This document shows positions 50,215 to 63,871 of a stretch of 64,000 bases of DNA, piece after piece. Below the pieces are notes generated by a model. That model was not told the DNA's origin. It searched no databases and saw nothing but the letters and a program-made list of their open reading frames with translations. This DNA comes from Aegicerativicinus sediminis (lineage in GTDB: Bacteria > Bacteroidota > Bacteroidia > Flavobacteriales > Flavobacteriaceae). The DNA lies in assembly GCF_015476115.1 (NCBI RefSeq), contig NZ_CP064295.1, forward strand, positions 2,536,001-2,600,000, read 5' to 3'. The translations under genes and the position numbers were made by a program. Position 1 is the stretch's first letter. Every line of letters begins with the position of its first letter.

Positions 50215-50979
50215 TTATCCTCTAATTGCACTTATAAAAGAACTGATACCAGCAATTCCTTTATCAGTCAACATCTTAATAAACGCACTCCCAATAATAG
50301 CTCCTTTAGAAAATTCGGTTGCCTGTCTAAAGGTCTTTTCATTACTGATACCAAAACCGACAATTTGCGGATTTTTCAAATTTAAGCAATCAATTCTTTT
50401 GAAATATTCTGTCTGTTCATTACCAAAACCGTCCTTTGCACCGGTAATACTTGCGCTGCTTACCATATAAATGAAACTATTGGAATTGTCATCAATTTCC
50501 TTAATTCGACCGTCACTTGTCTGTGGCGTTATCAACAACACATTTGCTAGATTGTAATTTTCAAATATGGTTTTGTAATCATTTATGTAAACATCTAATG
50601 GTAAGTCTGGTATAATTAAGCCATCTATGCCTATTTCCGAGCACTTTTCACAAAACTTCTCGACGCCATACTGCATAATGGGGTTGAAATAACCCATTAT
50701 CAACAAGGGTATAGTGATAGAAGATCTAACATTTTTAAGTTGTTCGAATAATAGTTCCGTTGTCATTCCATTATCCAATGCCTGTGTTGAACTGGCCTGG
50801 ATCGTTGGTCCATCTGCTAAGGGATCACTAAATGGCAATCCAATTTCAACTAGATCTACACCACTATCCTGTAATTCGATTAAAATAGGTAAGGTATCAC
50901 CAAGATTAGGAAAGCCTGCAGTAAAATAAATCGACAATAACTTCTTATCGGCTTTTAAAACGGTATTGATTCTATTCAT
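50215..50979 (-). CDS. trpA: Tryptophan synthase alpha chain
   Basis: 254 residues. Cleaves indole-3-glycerol phosphate to indole, which passes to TrpB. The family motifs LVEIGLPFSDPLADGPTIQ (catalytic Glu) and IDGLIIPDLPL (Asp) are present, with the phosphate-binding region VGFGISNEKTFRQA. Its start overlaps the end of the GHL10 gene by 8 bp and it is separated from trpB by two carbohydrate-type genes. It is the last gene of the trp operon. Confidence 0.97.
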   Translation of the reverse strand: MNRINTVLKADKKLLSIYFTAGFPNLGDTLPILIELQDSGVDLVEIGLPFSDPLADGPTIQASSTQALDNGMTTELLFEQLKNVRSSITIPLLIMGYFNPIMQYGVEKFCEKCSEIGIDGLIIPDLPLDVYINDYKTIFENYNLANVLLITPQTSDGRIKEIDDNSNSFIYMVSSASITGAKDGFGNEQTEYFKRIDCLNLKNPQIVGFGISNEKTFRQATEFSKGAIIGSAFIKMLTDKGIAGISSFISAIRG

Positions 50980-52087
50980 TGTTGAACTCTTTCGTTAGTT
51001 TTTTAAGTATATTTTTTTGTGTATCAGAAAGGTCATTCGCTGTAAAAAGTGAAACGCCAGAAGCTCCTTTCTCCTTAGATATCCTTATGGCTTTTTCTAA
51101 ATCTTCAGGATCGGATAATGCAGGCATATAGATACCCGCCATAATTGGATAATCTACAGTCTTAACGCCTTGTTCAGCTGCAAACCCTATCCAATTGATG
51201 TTTTCTCTATAAAAGTTATGGTATAGCATAGGAAATGCAGTATCCAAGTTCCAATCATTCCAAGCTTGGCGTACCATTTGCCGAGACATTTCTGGAAAAG
51301 GGAAGACAGCAGCAGTTAGTTTTTTCTTTTCCGAATGAACCATTTCGGCTATTTCATTAACTAAACTGGTAACGGCATTTAGCCTATATTGGCGCCATTC
51401 TGAACTTAATTCAGGATGCTCGTAATTAATAGGATCGACCCCAAAGATTGCTTTATAACCTTCTCTTGCAATAGGATGATAACCATAATCGTATTCTGGC
51501 ATTTCAGTAGTCTGTACAATATCGTATTTCGGTTGAAGATCGGCACCTAAAATAACGTCTACATAGCGCACATAATCTAAATGTATTGAAGCTAAGCCAT
51601 CCACGGCCATTAACTTTCGTACATTGTTTTTAATATGCTCCCTTGCTTCAGGATGAAATGGGCTCAACCATTGATAATAATCTACATAGGCTCTTTTTTC
51701 TAAAGAATTCTCACCATTTTTATTTACAGAATACCATTCTGGGTGTTTATTTGCTATAGTATCTCCAGGTCGATTAAGCGTCCACATCCACCCATGTATT
51801 TTAATACCCTTTTCCTTGGCTATGGGGATAATCTGTTCCAATATTTCCGGAGACCCATTAATCAGCGCCTCCGAGATGCCTACTTCTTTATAACCTTCAA
51901 GCCGATTCGCCCACTCTTCTGAATTGAATTCATTGCTAGCACCTGTCCAGGTTGAAAATCTAAAAGCATCCTTTTTATCTATTGATGTGGAGTCGTTTTT
52001 AGTTTCTTCAGTTTTTGTGTTGTTTTCTTGACATCCGAAAATAACCATGTAGGCTAGTAAGATCGATAGTGATTTTAATTTATTCAT
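50972..52087 (-). CDS. Glycoside hydrolase-like (GHL10/family 10-like) lipoprotein
   Basis: 371 residues. Lipoprotein signal (SILLAYMVIFGCQENN, lipidated Cys19). The remainder is a TIM-barrel of the GHL10/YngK type: KIHGWMWTLNRPGD, IHLDYVRYVD, KKLTAAVFPFPEM and GVSLFTANDLS. The Asp in LDYVRY is a candidate catalytic or substrate-binding residue. It would act at the outer membrane or periplasm on a glycan. Its ATG overlaps the CBM9 stop (ATGA) and its stop overlaps trpA, so it is an integral member of the trp mRNA. The biological reason is unknown. Confidence 0.82.
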   Translation of the reverse strand: MNKLKSLSILLAYMVIFGCQENNTKTEETKNDSTSIDKKDAFRFSTWTGASNEFNSEEWANRLEGYKEVGISEALINGSPEILEQIIPIAKEKGIKIHGWMWTLNRPGDTIANKHPEWYSVNKNGENSLEKRAYVDYYQWLSPFHPEAREHIKNNVRKLMAVDGLASIHLDYVRYVDVILGADLQPKYDIVQTTEMPEYDYGYHPIAREGYKAIFGVDPINYEHPELSSEWRQYRLNAVTSLVNEIAEMVHSEKKKLTAAVFPFPEMSRQMVRQAWNDWNLDTAFPMLYHNFYRENINWIGFAAEQGVKTVDYPIMAGIYMPALSDPEDLEKAIRISKEKGASGVSLFTANDLSDTQKNILKKLTKEFNNE

Positions 52088-53178
52088 TCTTTTATTGTTA
52101 GGAGGCCACTTTGGTTGATTGAATAGGTTTTATTGTTGGCAGAATTTGAATAGGTAAAAAGATATCCTTCCTCACGCCTTATAAATTGAATTGGTATATA
52201 ATCTTTTTGGTTAATTTTTACTTCATAAAATAACTCGACCTCATCTGATGTTTTTAGATTTTTAAGATTTCCATTCAGAACTTCCCTATACATAGTATAC
52301 ATTGCCTGTTTTACTTCCAAATCCTCTTCATAAGCAAATTTCGGATCTAGATTAGATGTAGAGTCTGAGAATTTAATATATCCCCACTTTTCAGGTTCGT
52401 GCATATTAATTACTTTTTGGTTGCTCCATACCCAATTGTATTCTTTTTTATACTCTCCACCTTCCATTTTCCGGTTATATCGGTTTTCAACCAAATCAAA
52501 ATCCCAATTGACCCTAGAAAAATTAAGTCGCCAAATATCACCTTCTTTAGGTGGTAAAGAATCATATTTAAGTGCAGACAAAGGTTTTATTGGTATGGCC
52601 ATTTCTACGGACCATAAAGAGTCGATGTCCTTAGGATTATTTAATGTCCCATAAATATGTACAGCCGTTTTAATGTTTTCTAAATTCCATGAATCTTCAG
52701 CCTTGCCACCAGCTCGATATGGCTTTGGTAAACGCAGATCCCAAACTGTATTTAAAGCATTTATTTCAATTTCTCCATAATTCATGGTTGTGCCCGATGG
52801 ATCTATGAAAACCTCAAAATCATTGTTGTAGAAAATGACAGTATCGCGTTGTTTTAATGTCGCCCAAATGTGTGGCTCTTCTAGTTCGGCATACACGTAT
52901 AAGAAATTATCATCCCAAAGCAGTTTTGCTCTAGTTTTATATTTTGGGGTTTTAGCACCTTCAATATCAATAAAATAATTTGTGAACCTAGAATTATCGT
53001 ATGACTGTTCATTTGCTAAACCATCGATGTAGATTGTATCATTAGTTCTTGGTACCTCGTAGAATTTTGGAGTAACCAGTAATTCTGAAATATCTATTTT
53101 TTGTATGTCCGAACCTGAAGTTTCAGGTTTACAACTAATTAGAATATTCAAAAAAAATATATAATGAATTAACCTCAT
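52084..53178 (-). CDS. CBM9-like carbohydrate-binding lipoprotein
   Basis: 364 residues. A lipoprotein signal (IHYIFFLNILISCKPETS) is followed by a family 9-like carbohydrate-binding domain (about 40-250: DTIYIDGLANEQSYDNSRFTNYF, AKLLWDDNFLYVYAELEEPHIWA, NDFEVFIDPSGTTMNYGEIEINA). The C-terminal ~100 residues are unassigned. It starts at the stop codon of trpB (TAATG, 1-bp overlap) and is followed by the GHL10 gene (4-bp overlap). The pair is probably an outer-membrane or periplasmic glycan-binding and hydrolysing set. Confidence 0.85.
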   Translation of the reverse strand: MRLIHYIFFLNILISCKPETSGSDIQKIDISELLVTPKFYEVPRTNDTIYIDGLANEQSYDNSRFTNYFIDIEGAKTPKYKTRAKLLWDDNFLYVYAELEEPHIWATLKQRDTVIFYNNDFEVFIDPSGTTMNYGEIEINALNTVWDLRLPKPYRAGGKAEDSWNLENIKTAVHIYGTLNNPKDIDSLWSVEMAIPIKPLSALKYDSLPPKEGDIWRLNFSRVNWDFDLVENRYNRKMEGGEYKKEYNWVWSNQKVINMHEPEKWGYIKFSDSTSNLDPKFAYEEDLEVKQAMYTMYREVLNGNLKNLKTSDEVELFYEVKINQKDYIPIQFIRREEGYLFTYSNSANNKTYSINQSGLLTIKE

Positions 53179-54359
53179 TATAGTTTGAAATAATTGATAT
53201 AAGTATTTAAATCTTTATCTCCTCGACCGGATAGATTAACAACAACAATCTCATTTTCCTGAAATTCTCTTTTTTCGAGTACGGCCAAGGCATGTGCTGT
53301 TTCTATAGCAGGTATAATGCCTTCCAATTTACTTAGTATCATTCCAGCTGACATGGCTTCATCATCCGTTATCGAATGAAATTCTGCCCTTCCAGATTTA
53401 TATAGGTGAGCGTGTAATGGCCCAACTCCAGGATAGTCTAAACCTGCCGAAATAGAATATGGTTCTGTAATTTGCCCATCATCAGTTTGCATTAAAAGGG
53501 TTCTGCTACCATGTATAATCCCCTCATGACCTAGTACGGAGGTTGCCGCACTTTCTCCTGTATCTATCCCTTTTCCGGCAGCCTCCACTGCTATTAGGTT
53601 AACATTTTCATTATCTAAGTAATGATAAAATGCACCAGCAGCATTACTTCCGCCTCCAACACATGCAATAACATGATTTGGATTTTCAGTACCTTCCTGT
53701 TCCATTAGCTGCCATTTCATTTCTTCAGATATTACAGATTGAAATCTAGCAACCATATCCGGATAGGGGTGAGGACCAACAACACTTCCAATGATATAGT
53801 GTGTTTCTACGGGGTTATTTATCCAATCGCGAATGGCCTCATTGGTAGCATCCTTTAAGGTTTTACTCCCAGAAGTTGCAGGGATAACTTTTGCTCCAAG
53901 CATTTTCATCCTAGCAACATTAGGTGCCTGCCTGGCAATGTCAATCTCTCCCATATAGACGATACATTCAATTCCCATAAGCGCACAGACAGTTGCAGTA
54001 GCAACACCATGTTGACCCGCGCCAGTTTCCGCAATTATTCGGTTTTTTCCAAGCCGCTTAGCCATTAAAATTTGGCCAATTGTATTGTTTACTTTGTGTG
54101 CACCTGTATGGTTGAGATCTTCGCGCTTTAGATAAACCTTTGTGTTGTATTTTTCTGAAAGACGTTTTGCAAAATAAAGAGGAGAAGGACGACCAACATA
54201 ATCTTTTAAAAGTTGTTGGAATTCCTTTTTGAAGTCCTCCTGAGACATAATGTCTAAATAATTTTTTCGTAACTCCTCAACGTTTGGATAGAGCATTTCT
54301 GGAATGAAAGCCCCGCCAAATTCTCCGTAATATCCTTTTTCGTTTACATTGAATCCCAT
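53178..54359 (-). CDS. trpB: Tryptophan synthase beta chain
   Basis: 393 residues, a PLP enzyme that joins indole and serine. The lysine in [15 protein letters not shown] binds PLP, and the phosphate loop is GGGSNAAG. Further motifs are [12 protein letters not shown] and [14 protein letters not shown]. It overlaps trpF by 16 bp upstream and the CBM9 gene by 1 bp downstream. Confidence 0.98.
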
Positions 54360-54994
54360 AATTCAAGAATAAATTGTTTTAGTAATGTTGGATTTTTTAA
54401 TCCTGGTTTTATTTCGAATTGACTATTGACATCTATGCCATAGCATTTATTTGAAATCTCTGAATTGAAGAACATTTTAATGTCCAATATCTGTTCTACT
54501 CCGATTCCCCCACTCAAAAAGAATGGCTTGTCTGAGTTATAGGTATTTAAAACATTCCAATCGAAAACATATCCATTGCCCCCGGGTCGTTTACCTTTGG
54601 TGTCAAATAAAAAGAAATCGCAAAATGCTTCATATGGTTTTAAAACTGAAAAATCGAATTCATCTTTTATAGAAAACACTTTTAAGATTTCTACCAAAGG
54701 AAAATCAGAACGTAACTCTTTGCATAGCTCAGGAGTTTCATTTCCATGTAATTGCACTGCATGAAATTTATGTTCTTCTATCAATTCTGAAATTTGAGCT
54801 TTTGAAGCATTGACGAAAACAGCCGTTTTTTTAATTTCTGAATTTATTTTAGGGATCGATCCACTAAAATTCCTTGGGCTATCGGGATAAAAAATAAAAC
54901 CCAAATAATCTGGTCCAAGGGCTGAAACCTCCTGTATATTTTCAGGATATTTCATTCCACAGATTTTAAGTTTTATATTTTTCGGAATTGACAC
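54344..54994 (-). CDS. trpF: Phosphoribosylanthranilate isomerase, GUG start
   Basis: 216 residues, a TIM-barrel isomerase. The catalytic Cys is in [12 protein letters not shown] and the catalytic Asp in FLFDTKG. The start is GTG at 54994, overlapping the trpC stop as TAGTG; the first ATG lies within the catalytic motif, so GTG is the real start. Translation is coupled to trpC. Confidence 0.95.
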
Positions 54995-55785
54995 TAATAA
55001 TTCTCGTATAAATTGCTCATAAATTCTTTTGCTGCCTTACCTGCATCGTCCGTCTTCATAAAGTTTTCACCAATTAGATAGCCTTTATATCCAAATTCTG
55101 AAAGTTCTTTGATGGCCCTTATATTACTGATGCCACTTTCAGAAACCTTCGTAAAATCATCAGGTATTAATTTTGAAAGGGCTTTACTGATTTCCAGATT
55201 GACCTCAAAAGTCTTTAGGTTTCTATTGTTTACACCCATCATATCTATGTTGGGCATTAAGCATTTCTTTAATTCGTCTTCATTATGAACTTCCATGAGA
55301 ACTTCCATTCCCAAACTTTTTGCTTGCTTAGAAAAGTCTATAATCTCATTTTTGGATAGAATTGATGCAATTAATAAAATCACATCGGCTCCATAGGCTT
55401 TGGCTTCGGTAATTTGATAAGATTCTATTATGAATTCTTTTCGCAATAATGGTAAATCGCAACTGGCACGGGCCAACATTAAATCTGTTAAGGACCCGCC
55501 GAAATATTTTCCATCAGTCAGTACTGACATTCCACATGCGCCAGCATTTTCATATCCTCTAGCCACATCGAAGACGTTCAAACTCAGGTTTATGACCGAT
55601 TTTGAAGGAGACCTACGTTTATGCTCGGCTATAATACCATAGGTGCTATTTTCAATATTGTCTCTTAATGAAATAGTTTCTCTGTCGAACAACGGAAATT
55701 TTTCTAACTCCTTTTCAGAGACCATAGATTTTTTTAAATCAACCTCTGTTTTTTTATCTGCTACAATTTTATCTAAAATGTTCAT
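54994..55785 (-). CDS. trpC: Indole-3-glycerol phosphate synthase
   Basis: 263 residues. Closes the indole ring from CdRP. The motifs IIAEHKRRSPSKSVIN, EFIIESYQI, GVNNRNLKTFEV and VSESGISN carry the catalytic Lys and Glu residues. ATGA overlap with trpD upstream. Confidence 0.97.
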   Translation of the reverse strand: MNILDKIVADKKTEVDLKKSMVSEKELEKFPLFDRETISLRDNIENSTYGIIAEHKRRSPSKSVINLSLNVFDVARGYENAGACGMSVLTDGKYFGGSLTDLMLARASCDLPLLRKEFIIESYQITEAKAYGADVILLIASILSKNEIIDFSKQAKSLGMEVLMEVHNEDELKKCLMPNIDMMGVNNRNLKTFEVNLEISKALSKLIPDDFTKVSESGISNIRAIKELSEFGYKGYLIGENFMKTDDAGKAAKEFMSNLYENY

Positions 55786-56783
55786 GAAGCTTTACTTAAG
55801 TTTATTAATTCAACAAAAGCGTTTTTTGCATTTCCGCTTTCCAATGAATATTTTGCATCGTCCATACTTTCCAAATATCCTTTACCCGTTGCCGTCGCAA
55901 TAGCCACTGCGGCATTGGCACAAACCACATTTTTTTGAGCTTCTGTTGCCTCATTATCTAAAACGGACATAAATATTTTGGCGGCCGATTCAATGGAGTC
56001 ACCACCATAAATTTCCTGCATAGATAGTGATTGTAAATTTAAGTCCCCCGGGGTTAATAGCCGCTCTCCCTTATCGTGACTCATAATTTTAGAATCGCCA
56101 GTTAAAGAGATTTCATCATACCCATCCAGGGCATATACAATAGAATACTTCTTGTTTGTGTTCTCATACAGATATCCATATAACCTAAGTAATTCTAAAC
56201 TGAACACACCTACCATTTGGTTCTTAGGGAATGCAGGATTCACCATTGGCCCAAGCATATTAAAGAACGTTTTTACACCTAATTCTCTCCTTATTGGAGC
56301 GACATGTTTCATTGCTGGGTGAAATAAAGGGGCATGAAGTATACATATACCTGCCTTATCCATTGATCTTTTTAAGAAATCCTGATCTGATGTGAATTTA
56401 ATTCCTAGGTATTCCAAAACATTGGAAGACCCACAGGCTGAGGAAACACCATAATTACCATGTTTTGTAACAGGGACACCTGCTCCAGCGGTAACAAAGG
56501 AGGCCAGTGTTGAAACATTAAAGGTGTTTTTTCCGTCCCCACCTGTGCCACATAAATCGATTGTTTCAATTCCGTCGAATTCCACCGGAATACACAGTTC
56601 TAAAAGTGCATCCCTAAATCCCTTTAACTCCTCAATGGTGATGCTACGCATCATATAAACTGTTAAAAAAGAAGCAATCTGACTGCTATTGTATTCACCT
56701 TTTGAGATTTTAACTAAAGCATTCTTGGCCTCTTCAGTAGAAATGTATTCTTGATTAATGAGTCTTGTTAATAATTCTTTCAT
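55782..56783 (-). CDS. trpD: Anthranilate phosphoribosyltransferase
   Basis: 333 residues. Transfers the phosphoribosyl group from PRPP to anthranilate. The PRPP-binding DLCGTGGDGKNTFNVST and the KHGNYGVSSACGSSNVLE segment are diagnostic. Starts 10 bp after trpG and overlaps trpC by 4 bp. Confidence 0.98.
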   Translation of the reverse strand: MKELLTRLINQEYISTEEAKNALVKISKGEYNSSQIASFLTVYMMRSITIEELKGFRDALLELCIPVEFDGIETIDLCGTGGDGKNTFNVSTLASFVTAGAGVPVTKHGNYGVSSACGSSNVLEYLGIKFTSDQDFLKRSMDKAGICILHAPLFHPAMKHVAPIRRELGVKTFFNMLGPMVNPAFPKNQMVGVFSLELLRLYGYLYENTNKKYSIVYALDGYDEISLTGDSKIMSHDKGERLLTPGDLNLQSLSMQEIYGGDSIESAAKIFMSVLDNEATEAQKNVVCANAAVAIATATGKGYLESMDDAKYSLESGNAKNAFVELINLSKAS

Positions 56784-56793
56784 CTTCCTTCGT

Positions 56794-57366
56794 TTAACAT
56801 AATTTCAACCAATTTTCAAGAATTTGTTTTCCGTTTGGTGTGAGTACCGATTCTGGATGGTACTGGACCCCACGAATATTATAGAATTTGTGTCTTATAG
56901 ACATTATTTGTCCTTGTTTATCAATCGATGTTACCTCTAAAACCTCAGGAAAGGTGTTCTGGTCAATAACCCAAGAATGATACCTGCCAATTTGGAATTC
57001 ACTTTCTAATCCAGTAAACATTGGATCATCATCAACCGTTAATTGCACTTCTGTAGAGACCCCATGAAATACCTTTGAAAGATTAATCAAATGTCCACCA
57101 TAAACCTCACCAATGGCCTGTTGCCCCAAACAGACACCCAGTATAGGTTTGGTCGGGCCATATCTCTCAATTATAGGCTTTAATAAGCCGGCCTCATCAG
57201 GAATTCCTGGACCAGGTGATAAAACAATGCGATCGTATTCTTCCGGCTCATGCATTTCAAGTTGATCATTTCGTTTTACCGTTACATCACATTCCAAATC
57301 CTCCAAATAATGGACAAGATTATAAGTAAAACTATCGTAATTATCTATAACTAAAATACGTTTCAT
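56794..57366 (-). CDS. trpG: Anthranilate synthase component II (glutamine amidotransferase)
   Basis: 190 residues, a class I glutamine amidotransferase. LSPGPGIPDEAG and ILGVCLGQQAIGEVYGG carry the oxyanion and nucleophile Cys; GVQYHPESVLTP has the His and Glu of the triad. It supplies ammonia to TrpE. One base separates it from trpE. Confidence 0.97.
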   Translation of the reverse strand: MKRILVIDNYDSFTYNLVHYLEDLECDVTVKRNDQLEMHEPEEYDRIVLSPGPGIPDEAGLLKPIIERYGPTKPILGVCLGQQAIGEVYGGHLINLSKVFHGVSTEVQLTVDDDPMFTGLESEFQIGRYHSWVIDQNTFPEVLEVTSIDKQGQIMSIRHKFYNIRGVQYHPESVLTPNGKQILENWLKLC

Positions 57367-57367
57367 G

Positions 57368-58771
57368 TTATATAGATTGTGCCAATTCTATGGCTTTATT
57401 GAGAGCTCCCAGTTTATTGTATACTTCCTGTAATTCATTTTCTGGTTTGGATTCTGAAACCATTCCAGCTCCTGCCTGCCAATGTAGTTCATGATTTTTA
57501 CTTAAAAATGTACGTATCATTATGGCATGGTTAAAATTGCCGTGGAAATCCATAAATCCAATAGCACCTCCATAAAATTCGCGACTTGTTTTCTCATAGC
57601 GTTCAATGAGTTGCAGGGCCATATGTTTTGGTGCACCGCTCAATGTTCCAGCCGGGAAAGTATCTGCTACTACTTGCATAGTCGAGATTTTATCATTTTT
57701 AAAACCAGTAACTTTACTTACCAAATGAATAACATGAGAGAAAAATTGAACCTCCCTATATGTCTCAACCTTAACGTCACGTCCATTTCTACTTAGGTCG
57801 TTTCTTGCCAAGTCAACAAGCATAACGTGTTCACTATTTTCTTTTTCGTCTTCAGACAGTTGCCTTGCTAGTGTTGCGTCTTGTTCATCATTCCCCGTAC
57901 GCTTAAAAGTCCCTGCAATTGGGTGTATTTCAGTTTTTCCATTAGCCACAATTAATTGAGCTTCCGGAGAACTTCCAAAAATCTTGAAATTTCCATAATC
58001 AAAATAGAACAGATAGGGTGAGGGGTTAATACTTCTTAATGCCCTGTAGACATTAAATTCGTCTCCTTTAAATGATTTACTAAATTTTCTTGATAAAACT
58101 AGCTGGAAAACATCACCGCGCGCGCAATGTTTTTTGGCTAGGGCAACATGTTCCAAAAACTCTTCATCTGTAAGATTACTTGTGGTTTCTCCTTCAGTCC
58201 TAAAATTAAATGTGGCATAATTTCTAGATTGGATGAGATGTAAAAGAGCATCTAAGTTGTCCTCGGTATTGTAACAATGTGCAAAAACATAAGCTTCATT
58301 TTTAAAATGGTTGATAGCTATAATGTTTTGGTAAACTGAATATATTAAATCTGGAACTCCTAAATAACCTATTTTTTTGGAAATAGTTACATCTTCAAAA
58401 TACCTAACCGTATCGTACCCGGTATAGCCAAATATTCCATTATAAATAAATTTGAAATCAGATAGTGTCTCCACTGCAAAACTATCAACGAATTCCTGAA
58501 TTTCATCTACGATTTTTGACTTGTCTGAAAGCTTTTTTGTTCGATTAGTGCCATCTGGATAAGAAGAAATCAGCTCATCATTCTTAAGTTCAATTGAAGC
58601 AATGGGATTACAACAGATGTAAGAAAAGCTATTGTCCGAGGTATGGTAATCACTACTTTCTAGTAATATGCTATTTGGGTATCGATCCCTAATTTTGAGA
58701 TAAACGCTTACCGGTGTTAAGGTATCGGCAAGTACTTTGGTGTAATGTGTTTTAAGATGATATGTTGCCAT
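57368..58771 (-). CDS. trpE: Anthranilate synthase component I
   Basis: 467 residues. Converts chorismate to anthranilate. SPSPYLFYFDYGNFKIFGSSPE, IAGTFKRTG, MLVDLARNDLSRNG and FPAGTLSGAPKHMALQLIERYE are chorismate-binding motifs. The N-terminal LLESS segment corresponds to the tryptophan feedback-binding site. First structural gene of the trp operon, 15 bp after the attenuator's T run. Confidence 0.98.
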   Translation of the reverse strand: MATYHLKTHYTKVLADTLTPVSVYLKIRDRYPNSILLESSDYHTSDNSFSYICCNPIASIELKNDELISSYPDGTNRTKKLSDKSKIVDEIQEFVDSFAVETLSDFKFIYNGIFGYTGYDTVRYFEDVTISKKIGYLGVPDLIYSVYQNIIAINHFKNEAYVFAHCYNTEDNLDALLHLIQSRNYATFNFRTEGETTSNLTDEEFLEHVALAKKHCARGDVFQLVLSRKFSKSFKGDEFNVYRALRSINPSPYLFYFDYGNFKIFGSSPEAQLIVANGKTEIHPIAGTFKRTGNDEQDATLARQLSEDEKENSEHVMLVDLARNDLSRNGRDVKVETYREVQFFSHVIHLVSKVTGFKNDKISTMQVVADTFPAGTLSGAPKHMALQLIERYEKTSREFYGGAIGFMDFHGNFNHAIMIRTFLSKNHELHWQAGAGMVSESKPENELQEVYNKLGALNKAIELAQSI

Positions 58772-58786
58772 ATGCGCTATTTAATT

Positions 58787-58816
58787 AAAAAAGGCCTGTC
58801 GTGAAAGACAAGCCTT
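58787..58816 (-). terminator. trp attenuator terminator hairpin
   Basis: The stem AAGGCTTGTC/GACAGGCCTT (nine pairs of ten, one mismatch) with a 6-nt loop (TTTCAC) is followed by TTTTTT (58787-58792 in plus coordinates) on the minus strand. It sits between the WWW leader peptide and trpE and is the regulated terminator of the operon. The loop and closing bases (58800-58807) can pair with a segment just upstream (58847-58853) to form a competing structure. Confidence 0.9.
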
Positions 58817-58846
58817 GATATTTTGAATTAATACAAAAAGGATATG

Positions 58847-58853
58847 CTTCACG
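58847..58853 (-). promoter_or_regulatory. Predicted antiterminator strand of the trp leader
   Basis: RNA CGUGAAG (minus strand) is complementary to CUUUCACG in the terminator loop (58800-58807): six Watson-Crick pairs plus a G-U. The strand contains the UGA stop of the leader peptide. A ribosome stalled at the Trp codons would leave it free, while one reaching the stop would cover it. Confidence 0.5.
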
Positions 58854-58902
58854 CTTCAAAATTGCGATAGCACCACCACCATGTATTAACTGATTTATTC
58901 AT
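58849..58902 (-). CDS. trpL: trp leader peptide, 17 residues with three consecutive Trp codons
   Basis: ATG at 58902, TGA at 58849-58851, encoding MNKSVNTWWWCYRNFEA. The three tandem TGG codons (58873-58881) followed by a terminator hairpin before trpE define a ribosome-mediated attenuator. Scarce charged tRNA-Trp should stall the ribosome at WWW and allow readthrough. Confidence 0.92.
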   Translation of the reverse strand: MNKSVNTWWWCYRNFEA

Positions 58903-58920
58903 CTGATTTTATTGTTGCCT

Positions 58921-58951
58921 CAAATATAGAAATGAATTTTATGTTTGCAAA
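58921..58951 (-). promoter_or_regulatory. trp operon promoter
   Basis: TTTG (58948-58951), a 19-bp spacer and TATATTTG (58921-58928) on the minus strand fully match the Bacteroidota consensus. The ATG of the leader peptide lies 19 bp downstream. The remainder of the 343-bp interval 58772-59114 holds the attenuator on one side and the marR terminator on the other. Confidence 0.88.
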
Positions 58952-59114: not shown

Positions 59115-59570
59115 TTAAAATTCTCTCATTTTACTTAAGAGAATATTAAGTTCATTTAATTCATTTTCGGAAAAACTAGAACAAATTTCATTTTCAATTT
59201 CATCCACCAAAGGGTCTAATATCTCTAATAGTTTTAGACCATTATCAGTAATTGAAATTTGAACTTTCCTTCGGTTTTCCGTAGAAATTCTACGTGTTAC
59301 CAAATCTTTCCTGATCAATTTGTCAACCAATCGAGTGGTATTGCTCATCCTCGTTACCATTCTTTTCTGAAGGTCTTGAAGATTTGTTTCCTTTCCTTTT
59401 TGCCCTCTTAAAATCCGCAGCACATTAAATTGCTCCATGGAAATATCATGGTTCTTTATGCTATCGGTCCACTTATCCCTTACCCTTGAGTAGGTATAAA
59501 ATAGGTTTATAACAGTTTTTCGATTGAGGGGAAGAGGGGAGGAAACTTGCAAGAGCTCGCTTAACTCCAT
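59115..59570 (-). CDS. MarR family transcriptional regulator
   Basis: 151 residues from the ATG at 59570 (an upstream TTG frame would overlap the -7 box). The winged helix (MEQFNVLRILRGQKG, LQDLQKRMVTRMSNTTRLVDKLIRKDLVTRRISTENRRKVQ) has the MarR wing DRRxxx-like TENRRKVQ. Dimerisation helices flank it. No cysteine near the ligand pocket except one in the C-terminal helix. Divergent from the TlpA-like gene; probably autoregulated through the palindrome at its promoter. Confidence 0.9.
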   Translation of the reverse strand: MELSELLQVSSPLPLNRKTVINLFYTYSRVRDKWTDSIKNHDISMEQFNVLRILRGQKGKETNLQDLQKRMVTRMSNTTRLVDKLIRKDLVTRRISTENRRKVQISITDNGLKLLEILDPLVDEIENEICSSFSENELNELNILLSKMREF

Positions 59571-59578
59571 ATACAACG

Positions 59579-59592
59579 TTTGTATATACAAA
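59579..59592. promoter_or_regulatory. 14-bp palindrome TTTGTATATACAAA at the marR start, putative MarR operator
   Basis: A perfect palindrome overlapping the TATATTTG -7 box (59589-59596 on the minus strand), 8 bp before the marR ATG. The geometry fits repression by a MarR dimer. A second, degraded half (CCATATACAACG) adjoins it at 59568-59579. Confidence 0.6.
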
Positions 59593-59596: not shown

Positions 59597-59687
59597 AGAA
59601 TATTGCTTTAACCCTTTCTATTAATTTCAGTTTTATAATGTTTTGTTAAAAACTAATTGGCACGGAAGGAGATTTTTATTTTTAGGT

Positions 59688-60242
59688 ATGAAACATAGTC
59701 TACTCGTACTTGTATTAATTCTCTTTTTAGTTTGTTGCAAAGAATCTGGAGATCAAACTATTGTGGGTAAGGAGACCTCTAAAAATCAAGTGGAGGAAAC
59801 TTCTAAAACTACATCCAATTTCTCTTTTGAAATTGTAGATTTTAATGGGCTTAAACCGTATTTATCAACTGATAACGATTCTATTTATGTTGTAAATTTT
59901 TGGGCTACTTGGTGTAAGCCTTGCGTTAAAGAGATGCCTTATTTCCAGAGACTAGCAAAAGAATACAGTTCAAAAAAAGTGAAACTTCTTTTAGTTAGCC
60001 TAGATTTTCCTAACAAATATGAATCGCTTTTACAGCCTTTTATCGAAGAAAATAATATTGACAGTGAAGTTATTGCGCTGAATGATCCGAATTCTAATGC
60101 TTGGATCCCACAAATAGATGAATCTTGGTCTGGAGCTATTCCCGCAACAATAATTTTCAATAAAGATGAGCGTAAATTTTACGAACAGTCTTTTACCTAC
60201 GAAGAATTAGAAAATCAATTAAAATCCGTAATAAACAATTAA
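59688..60242 (+). CDS. TlpA-type thiol-disulfide oxidoreductase lipoprotein
   Basis: 184 residues from the ATG at 59688; a TTG at 59643 would add 15 residues before a clear lipoprotein signal (SLLVLVLILFLVCCKESG). A thioredoxin-fold domain follows, with the active site WATWCKPCVKEM. It should reduce or oxidise thiols in the periplasm, for example apocytochrome c. It begins a plus-strand run with the thioredoxin-family gene 12 bp on. Confidence 0.92.
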   Translation: MKHSLLVLVLILFLVCCKESGDQTIVGKETSKNQVEETSKTTSNFSFEIVDFNGLKPYLSTDNDSIYVVNFWATWCKPCVKEMPYFQRLAKEYSSKKVKLLLVSLDFPNKYESLLQPFIEENNIDSEVIALNDPNSNAWIPQIDESWSGAIPATIIFNKDERKFYEQSFTYEELENQLKSVINN

Positions 60243-60254
60243 ACACATTAAGTT

Positions 60255-60857
60255 ATGAAAACAGTTATGATTTTTCTCGCACTTATGGTTGGAGGTTTCC
60301 TATGCGATGCTCCAGTAAGTGAAGGGTATGATATCGGTGATAAAGCCACTGATTTTAAATTGGAAAATATCAATGGAAAGATGGTATCCTTATCGGATTA
60401 TAAGGATGCAAAGGGATATATTGTGATTTTTACCTGTAATACCTGTCCATATGCACAGGCTTATGAAGATAGGATAATTGCTTTGGATAAAAAATATGCC
60501 TCAAAGGGATATCCCGTAATTGCCATTATGCCAAATAACACTGCGGCCAAACCGGGAGATAATATGGATGCCATGAAAACTAGGGCAAAAGAAAAGGGTT
60601 TTACATTTCCTTATTTAATTGACAAGGAACAAAAAATTTATCCCCAATATGGAGCTACAAAGACTCCGCATGTATATGTTTTGGAGAAAACTAAGGCAGG
60701 TAACATAGTTAAGTATATAGGTGCTATTGATGATAATTACCAAGATGCATCATCAGTTAATACAACCTATGTTGAAAATGCTGTTGATGCCTTGTTAAAT
60801 GGAGAGCAAGTAAAAGAAACCAAAACTCGCGCAATAGGTTGTTCCATAAAGGCCTAA
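60255..60857 (+). CDS. Thioredoxin-family exported protein (CNTCP active site)
   Basis: 200 residues: a signal peptide (VMIFLALMVGGFLCDAP) and a redoxin-like domain with the active site TCNTCPYAQAYEDRI (CxxC). KTPHVYVLEK carries the cis-Pro equivalent. Last residues include RAIGCSIKA, a third cysteine typical of this family. Probably co-transcribed with the TlpA-like gene and ended by a terminator 23 bp after the stop. Confidence 0.9.
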   Translation: MKTVMIFLALMVGGFLCDAPVSEGYDIGDKATDFKLENINGKMVSLSDYKDAKGYIVIFTCNTCPYAQAYEDRIIALDKKYASKGYPVIAIMPNNTAAKPGDNMDAMKTRAKEKGFTFPYLIDKEQKIYPQYGATKTPHVYVLEKTKAGNIVKYIGAIDDNYQDASSVNTTYVENAVDALLNGEQVKETKTRAIGCSIKA

Positions 60858-60879
60858 GTTTAGAAATAAAAATTTTAAC

Positions 60880-60910
60880 AATCCGGGGTGTAACGCTTCG
60901 GATTTTTTTT
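60880..60910 (+). terminator. Terminator after the thioredoxin-family gene
   Basis: AATCCG/CGGATT stem (60880-60885 and 60899-60904) with additional inner pairing possible, followed by a run of eight T. Confidence 0.65.
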
Positions 60911-60932
60911 CGTCTTTATATTAAAGAAATGT

Positions 60933-60940
60933 TAATTTTG
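60933..60940 (+). promoter_or_regulatory. -7 element TAATTTTG of the rhodanese gene
   Basis: A TAnnTTTG match 24 bp before the rhodanese ATG; the -33 region is only T-rich. Confidence 0.45.
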
Positions 60941-60963
60941 CATCGAAACTTATTAGTAATTCA

Positions 60964-61278
60964 ATGGCAGATTTAACACAAGATGAATGGGTAGAACAAC
61001 TGAATAGCGCTGATGATGCGATGATTCTAGATATTCGAACCACTGAAGAGGTAGAAGCGGGACATATTCCCAATTCTGTTCAGCTTGATATATATAAAGG
61101 ACAAGAATTTATTGACGCTTTAGAGGAATTGGATAAATCTAAGACTTACTTTCTTTACTGCCGATCGGGTGCTCGTAGCGCTCAGGCTTGTAAACTGATG
61201 GAACAACTAGGTTTTGATAAAACTTTTAATCTATTAGGAGGTATTTTAGAATGGCGAGGAGAAATTGAAGTAGGATAA
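60964..61278 (+). CDS. Single-domain cytoplasmic rhodanese
   Basis: 104 residues, one rhodanese fold with the active site YCRSGARSAQACKLM. The catalytic Cys and following CxxGxR-type loop are intact. No signal peptide is seen, so it is cytoplasmic. It transfers sulfane sulfur; the acceptor is unknown. Followed 49 bp later by a lipoprotein rhodanese. Confidence 0.92.
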   Translation: MADLTQDEWVEQLNSADDAMILDIRTTEEVEAGHIPNSVQLDIYKGQEFIDALEELDKSKTYFLYCRSGARSAQACKLMEQLGFDKTFNLLGGILEWRGEIEVG

Positions 61279-61327
61279 TAATTTAATATTCATTACGTTA
61301 ACATTAGATAAAATTTGGTGATTACCT

Positions 61328-61729
61328 ATGGTTAGATTGTCAAGATTAGTTATAGGATTTTTAAGTTTCCTTCTAATATTAGGTTGTATGCAAAGCAAAA
61401 CAACCGAAGTTAAAGTTGTATCGCCAGACGAAATGGAAGCGATTTTGAATTTGGAGGAAGTTCAATTAGTAGATGTTCGAACTTCTGATGAATTTGCTGT
61501 AGAATCTATTCCTGGATCACAAAATATCGATTTTGAATCCCCAACCTTTGAAGAGGATATTGATAAATTAGATAAGACCAAGCCCGTTCTTCTTTATTGT
61601 AATGCCGGTAAACAAAGTGCCAAATGCGCAAAAAAACTGTTGGATGCTGGCTTCATAAAAATTTATGATTTGGAGGGAGGCATTACGAAATGGAAATATA
61701 AAGGAGGACATATAAAGCAACGATCTTAA
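61328..61729 (+). CDS. Rhodanese-domain lipoprotein
   Basis: 133 residues: a lipoprotein signal (LVIGFLSFLLILGCMQSK) and a rhodanese domain with the active-site loop YCNAGKQSAKCA; the second Arg of the usual CxxGxR loop is replaced (G-K-Q). It is predicted to be anchored to a membrane facing the periplasm. A paralogue of the preceding cytoplasmic rhodanese, placed between it and dsbD. Confidence 0.9.
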   Translation: MVRLSRLVIGFLSFLLILGCMQSKTTEVKVVSPDEMEAILNLEEVQLVDVRTSDEFAVESIPGSQNIDFESPTFEEDIDKLDKTKPVLLYCNAGKQSAKCAKKLLDAGFIKIYDLEGGITKWKYKGGHIKQRS

Positions 61730-61741
61730 AATTTAGATTAG

Positions 61742-61765
61742 AACCAGCAATTGCTGGTTTTTTTA
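61742..61765 (+). terminator. Terminator after the rhodanese lipoprotein gene
   Basis: The palindrome AACCAGCAATTGCTGGTT (61742-61759, perfect) followed by TTTTT. Confidence 0.85.
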
Positions 61766-61813
61766 TGACTTTAATTTTGTGATAGCTTTAAGGCTTCTTT
61801 CTTATTCTTCTTA

Positions 61814-61821
61814 TATTTTTG
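61814..61821 (+). promoter_or_regulatory. -7 element TATTTTTG of dsbD
   Basis: A TAnnTTTG match about 50 bp before the dsbD ATG; no TTTG at the -33 spacing. Confidence 0.4.
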
Positions 61822-61870
61822 TTCTATAACTAAACCTTTTCGTCATCCCAGACGTTCTTATGATTTACAA

Positions 61871-63871
61871 ATGGTAAGATTTACACTTTCCTTGTTCGTT
61901 GCTATCGTATTTACTTTTTCAGGAAACGGACAAATACTTGACCCTGTAAAATGGGAAAGCTCAGTTGAAAAAATAAATGACTCAACCTACAAATTAATTT
62001 CAGTTGCACACATAGATGATGGCTGGCATCTCTATTCACAAAGTGTTCCGGAAAATGGTCCTATACCGACCACCTTTTCTTATCCAGAATCGGATAGCAT
62101 AAAACTTTTAAATGAAACTATTGAAGATATAGGAACAACTGTCATGGATCCCGTTTTCAATATGGAAATTAAATATTTTGATGAAACTGCGAAATTCGAA
62201 CAGACTGTAGTTGTTAGTGGGGATGTTTCAAATTCAATTACTGCCGAGGTAGAATATATGGTTTGTGATGAAAGCCGATGCTTACCTCCAACTTATAAGG
62301 ATTTGGTTTTTCAATTAAGCAATGACACTAAATCCTCGTCAATAGATTTTAATACAATTGATGACAATTCAGTAAAAGATTCGGTGCTTAATTCGACCGC
62401 TGATTCTGAAGAATTTACACTTCCTTCTGAGGAACCAAAAAAAGGGCTTTGGGCTATTTTTATTATAGCTTTTTTATCTGGATTTGTCGCCTTACTTACT
62501 CCTTGTGTTTTTCCAATGATTCCAATGACAGTAAGCTTCTTTATTAAGCAAAGTCCAACCAAAGCTACAGGAATTAAAAATGCAGTTATTTATGGGCTTT
62601 CCATAGTAGTGATATATGTAGTGTTAGGTACACTGGTTACTTGGATTTTTGGAGCAGATTCTTTAAATGCTTTAGCCACCAATGTTTGGTTCAATCTAGT
62701 TTTCTTTTTGATTTTAGTGGTATTTGCTATATCCTTCTTGGGGGCTTTTGAAATTGTGCTGCCAAGTTCGTGGGCTAATAAAGTTGACGCTCAAGCCGAT
62801 AGAGGAGGTTACGTTGGAATATTTTTTATGGCTTTGGCATTGGCGATTGTATCTTTCAGTTGCACTGGCCCCATTGTTGGAACGCTTTTGGTTGAGGCCG
62901 CCTCTAAAGGAGGATTGGCCCCTGTAATAGGAATGCTCGGGTTTTCTTTAGCAATTGCAATTCCTTTTGCATTGTTTGCCGCATTTCCAGGCTGGATGAA
63001 TTCGTTGCCAAAATCAGGAGGATGGCTTAACACTGTTAAGGTGGTTTTGGGATTTTTGGAATTGGCACTTGCCTTCAAGTTTTTATCTCAGGCAGATCTT
63101 GTTTTACAGCTTCATTTACTTGAAAGAGAGGTCTTTTTAGCGATATGGATTGCTATTTTTGGAACATTGGCTTTTTATTTGTTTGGTAAAATCACTTTGC
63201 CTCATGATTCGCCATTATCGCATATTTCCGTTGGTAGATTATCTTTAGGACTATTGACTTTGTCTTTTACAATATATTTGATTCCAGGTCTTTGGGGTGC
63301 ACCTTTAAAACTCATTAGCGCTTTTCCTCCCCCAATTGAATATAGTGAATCTCCTTATGGTGTAGGGAATAGTCTAAATAGTGGTTTAATTAATTCACAT
63401 GCAGATGGTGATCTGCCGGATGGGGCACATTATTTACCCCCTCATCAGATTCTTGCTTTTAATGATTATGATAAAGGATTAGCTTATGCCAAAACAGTTA
63501 ATAAACCGGTTTTGCTTGATTTTACAGGATGGGCATGTGTAAATTGCAGAAAAATGGAGCAGAATGTTTGGGTTGATGATCAAGTACTTTCCATTTTAAA
63601 GAATGATGTTGTATTGGTATCGTTATATGTTGATGACAAGCGACCTTTAGACGAAAATGAAGTGTTGGATTCAAAATTACGACCCGGGAAAAAATTGAAA
63701 TATATAGGCCAAAAGTGGAGTGAGTTTCAGGCTGTTCGATATAAAACGAATACTCAACCTTTTTATGTTTTATTAAATAAAGAGGAAGCTAATCTAGTTC
63801 CACCAATTGGATACACCCCAGATGCAGATAATTTTGAGAATTGGTTAAGGGCAGGGATTTCAAATTATTAA
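61871..63871 (+). CDS. dsbD: Thiol:disulfide interchange protein DsbD
   Basis: 666 residues. A signal peptide ([18 protein letters not shown]), a periplasmic N-terminal domain (about 25-150, with CDESRCLPP carrying the two redox cysteines), an eight-helix membrane domain with cysteines in [17 protein letters not shown] and [10 protein letters not shown], and a C-terminal thioredoxin domain with the active site [10 protein letters not shown]. It moves electrons from cytoplasmic thioredoxin to periplasmic proteins, including TlpA-like partners encoded 1.7 kb upstream. Full length; ends 11 bp from a convergent gene. Confidence 0.95.

Follow-up and report, generated by a model that had tools for sequence, protein, structure and literature searches.

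A tryptophan attenuator of the catalogued Bacteroid-trp type ahead of trpE in Aegicerativicinus sediminis

In Aegicerativicinus sediminis the trp operon is preceded by a promoter, a very short ORF with three consecutive Trp codons and a terminator, which raises the question whether transcription of the operon is controlled by a ribosome reading this leader and, if so, whether such a device is anything new for Bacteroidota. A sequence-only reading of the locus had proposed ribosome-mediated attenuation and had considered the case worth recording for this phylum. We analyzed a window of 64,000 nucleotides, i.e., the whole stretch of DNA under study, in which trpE (anthranilate synthase component I; 57368-58771, minus strand; TIGR00564, E 4e-125) is the first structural gene and is followed by the consecutive genes trpG, trpD, trpC, trpF, and trpB (53178-57366, minus strand; NCBIfam models), with trpA (50215-50979, minus strand; PF00290, E 2e-71) as the last trp gene. 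Two genes are inserted between trpB and trpA (50972-53178, minus strand) with short overlaps, namely those of a CBM9-like protein (52084-53178, minus strand) and of a glycosyl-hydrolase-like GHL10 protein (50972-52087, minus strand), both with a lipoprotein-like N-terminus. The GHL10 gene is missing from another genome of the same genus (G001), and in genome G005 its best relative is found on a different contig than trpE. A run of thioredoxin-like, rhodanese and DsbD-type genes (59643-63871, plus strand), probably a thiol-redox or periplasmic reduction cluster, adjoins the trp operon.

The promoter, the WWW leader, the terminator with its T6 tail and the loop pairing claimed by the sequence-only reading are all present on the minus strand, at the positions given there. 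The promoter is of the Bacteroidota type and spans 58921-58951, with TTTG at 58951-58948, a spacer of 19 nucleotides and TATATTTG at 58928-58921. The leader peptide ORF (58849-58902, minus strand) comprises 17 codons, encoding MNKSVNTWWWCYRNFEA and ending in a stop codon, and orthologous WW or WWW leaders occur in nearly all relatives possessing TrpE. Its putative Trp-sensing site, TGG TGG TGG, is located at 58873-58881, a position conserved among relatives. Folding of the leader RNA, suggested as a check by the same reading, yielded a predicted minimum-energy structure with a 1:2 protector hairpin and a 3:4 terminator. The protector hairpin (58827-58890, minus strand; outer pairing GTTAATACA:TGTATTAAT), to which the Rfam alignment also points, encloses the Trp codons and region 2, the 5′ strand of the antiterminator (CGTGAAGCATATCCTT, 58838-58853, minus strand), which overlaps the leader stop codon. 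Region 3 (AAGGCTTGTCTTTCACG, 58800-58816, minus strand), the pairing partner of region 2, is made up of the terminator 5′ arm and loop. The intrinsic terminator itself (58787-58816, minus strand) has a 10-bp stem and a 6-nt loop and reads AAGGCTTGTC-TTTCAC-GACAGGCCTT at 58816-58791, with the T6 at 58792-58787; its predicted stability is -15.2 kcal/mol, and the terminator scan in which it was found gave three sites where 0.2 were expected. As in a classical attenuator, it thus lies between the leader and the first structural gene. A second strong terminator is present at 59027-58994 (minus strand), 3′ of a MarR-family gene (59115-59591) and ahead of the trp promoter, which it insulates from upstream transcription.

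For an examination of conservation, TrpE loci were collected from 85 of 119 relatives and from 77 of the 247 genomes that represented the class, and the DNA upstream of 152 of these loci in Bacteroidia was checked for a T-tailed hairpin preceded by a short ORF in which Trp codons are adjacent (or spaced as W-x-W). Such a leader with terminator was present at 133 of the 152 loci, from 29 families, and at 71 of 72 loci in the window's own family. Retention of the Trp codons and the hairpin in relatives, on which the sequence-only reading had staked its interpretation, is thereby borne out. Both the number of Trp codons and their spacing to region 2 are conserved, with the other residues of the peptide varying. 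A strict promoter, TTTG-N18-21-TAnnTTTG, is found 5′ of 50 of the 71 own-family leaders (0.15 expected from shuffles), and the terminator is near-invariant in this family (AAGGCTTGTC...GACAAGCCTT). Some leaders carry interrupted Trp runs such as WRWQ, WLWQ, and WCW (L098-L100, L104, and L105 in family f27, L113 and L116 in f54, L091 in f39). TrpE is present with no Trp-run leader found upstream at L072, L075, and L077 of family f16 and at L083 of f1; since the f16 genomes are strongly reduced, to about 0.6 Mb, this suggests that family f16 has lost attenuation.

These observations bear on two other ways of reading the locus. As intergenic terminators are common, the hairpin could be the plain terminator of an upstream gene, or a constitutive block, with the WWW ORF present by chance. 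The upstream MarR-family gene, however, has its own terminator before the trp promoter, and the recurrence of leader and terminator at 133 of 152 TrpE loci, together with an alternative pairing that covaries (see below), is not what chance would produce; this reading is already refuted by conservation and has next to no probability left. Attenuation might also act mainly on translation, with the leader ribosome affecting initiation at trpE and not termination. Shine-Dalgarno sites are rarely used by Bacteroidota, which makes coupling by reinitiation conceivable. Against this stand the 77 nt that separate the leader stop codon from the trpE ATG (58771, minus strand), the strong terminator with T6 lying in between, and the near-invariance of that terminator in the window's own family, so that we consider a mainly translational effect extremely unlikely and control at the level of transcription termination the reading to be followed.

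As to the identity of the element, a scan of the whole window at Rfam gathering scores gave zero matches, T-box included. Taken by itself, this empty default scan would have pointed to an undescribed element, but a permissive Rfam scan of the leader region alone recovered RF01692, Bacteroid-trp, along the full model (model positions 1-131; 58807-58923, minus strand; 42.7 bits, E 3.4e-4). The curated gathering cut-off of RF01692 is 49 bits, and because the window copy lies about 6 bits under it, the element is missed by a default scan. RsaE, LPR17, SSRC10, and other permissive matches at the leader were far below their own cut-offs and were discarded. In a whole-genome search, orthologous elements exceeded the RF01692 cut-off in 43 of the 119 relatives, and these matches coincide with leaders that had been found independently from TrpE. 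The window element resembles Bacteroid-trp in its full-length match, in its site directly 5′ of trpE, followed by trpGDCFB, in a Bacteroidete, in its short ORF with consecutive Trp codons, to be compared with UGGuGGUGg in the RF01692 consensus, and in its 1:2 hairpin, which is the same hairpin as in the model. It differs in scoring under the cut-off and in having a terminator and a 2:3 loop pairing, whereas the Rfam model extends no further than the 5′ arm of the terminator and includes the 1:2 hairpin only.

A literature search by general terms for attenuation in Bacteroidetes returned nothing specific; it was the name Bacteroid-trp that led to the relevant papers. The family, described in Rfam as "Bacteroidete tryptophan peptide leader RNA", was reported by Weinberg et al. 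(2010; PMC2864571), whose Table 1 lists it for Bacteroidetes as cis-regulatory (y) but not as a switch (n). A paper from 2019 describes Bacteroid-trp upstream of the Flavobacterium psychrophilum trp operon and draws a parallel with the attenuator of E. coli (PMC6414381). Given the RF01692 match and these two papers, this kind of element is already known: it is a real trp attenuator, catalogued since 2010 as Bacteroid-trp and ordinary for its group, so the value as a new Bacteroidota record that had been attached to it falls away. The classification in Rfam and in Weinberg et al. (2010) as a cis-regulatory leader with the entry "switch: n" also speaks against a Trp-binding riboswitch or a TRAP-like protein-bound terminator controlling trpE, with the short ORF being incidental. 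A terminator with an alternative pairing would, on its own, fit such a ligand- or protein-operated switch as well; yet the conservation of the Trp codons in number and spacing to region 2, with the rest of the peptide free to vary, is at odds with it, as is the genome, in which neither TrpR nor TRAP (trpR, mtrB) gave a match (PF01371, PF02081). Control of this type is therefore very unlikely, and sensing by the leader ribosome remains the preferred reading.

Whether the antiterminator is built as had been claimed can be seen from region 2 and its partner. The 7-bp pairing between the terminator loop and the strand with the leader stop codon is present: CGTGAAG (58853-58847), which overlaps the stop codon TGA, pairs with TTTCACG of the terminator loop (58806-58800). 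The description of this antiterminator as unusually short does not hold, since the core continues, with small interruptions, into the terminator 5′ arm (ATA:TGT, 3 bp, and CCTT:AAGG, 4 bp), giving a duplex of 14 bp in total with a predicted energy of -12.0 kcal/mol, compared with -15.2 kcal/mol for the terminator. Covariation of the loop pairing, another check that had been put forward, is supported by a swap test over 29 families, in which region 2 paired with its own loop at -7.14 kcal/mol on average and with swapped loops at -5.11 kcal/mol (sd 0.34; lowest of 300 permutations -6.06), the use of one leader per family limiting, though not fully removing, the influence of kinship between families. 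Shuffled region 2 sequences paired at -4.57. In line with this, compensatory changes occur within the window's own family, where TCGTGA:TCACGA is replaced by TCGCAA:TTGCGA (L051), and further pairs are GCGATGA:TCATCGC (L054), TCGCGA:TCGCGA (L055), and AAGTGAG:CTTCACT (L066). Among leaders of the other families, just 26% have a loop pairing that is significant when taken singly, and pairing with the 5′ arm dominates. Mean energies follow the same division, with -8.9 for the loop, -5.0 for the arm alone and -12.8 for both in the own family, and -6.8 for the loop, -9.2 for the arm and -14.5 for both in the other Bacteroidia families. The loop-weighted antiterminator is therefore a habit at the level of the family and not an oddity of this genome, and its overall strength is normal. 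A pseudoknot combining the loop pairing with the intact terminator was considered separately and rejected by topological reasoning, there being no linker between the loop strand and the 3′ arm.

The geometry of the leaders was then compared with the expected positions of a translating ribosome. In the own family, the median distance from the opening base of Trp codon 1 to the start of region 2 is 26 nt (interquartile range 25-26); region 2 is situated at the stop codon in 99% of leaders. For modeling, the ribosome was assumed to shield the RNA up to about 13 nt beyond the codon under translation, and the free RNA 3′ of this footprint was folded for a transcript reaching as far as the terminator loop. 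A ribosome placed at Trp codon 1, 2, or 3 led to predicted capture of the loop by the upstream strand in 94, 100, and 97% of the 71 own-family leaders, respectively, as against 1% for one placed at the stop codon; the corresponding values for the window leader are -12.0 when stalled and -1.0 at the stop codon. If no ribosome is present, the model lets the 1:2 hairpin of the window leader form first and the terminator next; over the own family, however, some capture of the loop was predicted in 54% of the truncated ribosome-free transcripts, so that default termination appears less clear-cut than the other two states. In completed transcripts the terminator is the more stable predicted fold in 99-100% of leaders, which means that antitermination must be kinetic. 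Like a classical attenuator, the predicted folds and geometry thus show an antiterminator that excludes the terminator, with a 5′ strand that a ribosome at the stop codon would cover and that would be free upon stalling at Trp.

The following sequence of events is consistent with this anatomy. RNA polymerase would start about 7 nt past TATATTTG, and a ribosome would translate the 17-codon leader. When Trp-tRNA is scarce, it would stall on the three TGG codons, thereby breaking the 1:2 hairpin and freeing region 2, which could then pair with the emerging terminator loop and 5′ arm, so that no terminator would form and trpE would be transcribed. When Trp-tRNA is plentiful, the ribosome would reach the stop codon inside region 2 and cover this strand, the 3:4 terminator would form, and transcription would end ahead of trpE. 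In the absence of translation, the 1:2 hairpin would hold region 2, making termination the default. Ribosome stalling, termination in the cell and a response to Trp are thus proposed on the basis of anatomy, conservation, covariation and predicted folds. Taken together, conservation, the covarying loop pairing, the ribosome-position model and the site 5′ of trpEGDCFB uphold the initial idea of ribosome-mediated attenuation, and we put at roughly 94% the probability of a ribosome-mediated attenuator that acts on transcription of the trp operon and belongs to the Bacteroid-trp (RF01692) leader RNAs.

This design has much in common with the E. coli trpL leader, i.e., a short peptide with adjacent Trp codons and the logic of 1:2, 2:3, and 3:4 pairing, and E. 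coli trpL behaves alike in the ribosome-position model (-15.6 when stalled, no 2:3 pairing at the stop codon). Kinship in sequence between the two was assessed through Rfam. They differ in that the partner of region 2 in E. coli is the 5′ arm together with the bases preceding it (-14.0), with very little pairing to the loop (-2.0), whereas the window's own family puts most of the pairing on the loop. Trp attenuation outside Proteobacteria is also represented, in another phylum, by Corynebacterium glutamicum and Streptomyces venezuelae, for whose trp leaders PMC4833913 cites experimental support. It is possible, if rather doubtful at present, that the own-family attenuators follow a loop-capture design, in which a conserved strand at the leader stop codon begins to pair at the apical loop while the terminator is still forming, and that this 2:3 pairing, which is absent from Rfam, is an undescribed variant of the arm-directed antiterminator.

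Two further leaders were observed in the same genome (C1). The first (L154), 5′ of hisG (3651673-3652215, minus strand), encodes MINRLSHHHHFFGTCAQARW followed by a stop codon and contains four His codons (HHHH); it has a T7 terminator (-16.1) before hisG and a region 2 (GCGCTCAGGCG) whose partners are the 5′ arm and the loop of this terminator (-16.4), and it had no Rfam match. The second (L155), 5′ of a biosynthetic ilvD (614561-616174, minus strand), is a candidate branched-chain leader with a TTG start and the run IISIIVVV, ending in NQVIISIIVVVASVGR and a stop codon; its terminator (-18.1 kcal/mol) lies 255 nt before ilvD, its region 2 pairing is comparable, and it reached no Rfam family, with only a weak sub-threshold match to Phe_leader.

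For the biology of the group, Trp attenuation accompanies TrpE almost throughout the sampled Bacteroidia. What is gained for the description of Bacteroid-trp is modest: the covariation-supported 2:3 pairing could extend the Rfam model. As the his and ilv leaders share the layout of the trp leader, attenuation seems to be a general mode by which amino-acid operons are controlled in the genome of A. sediminis.
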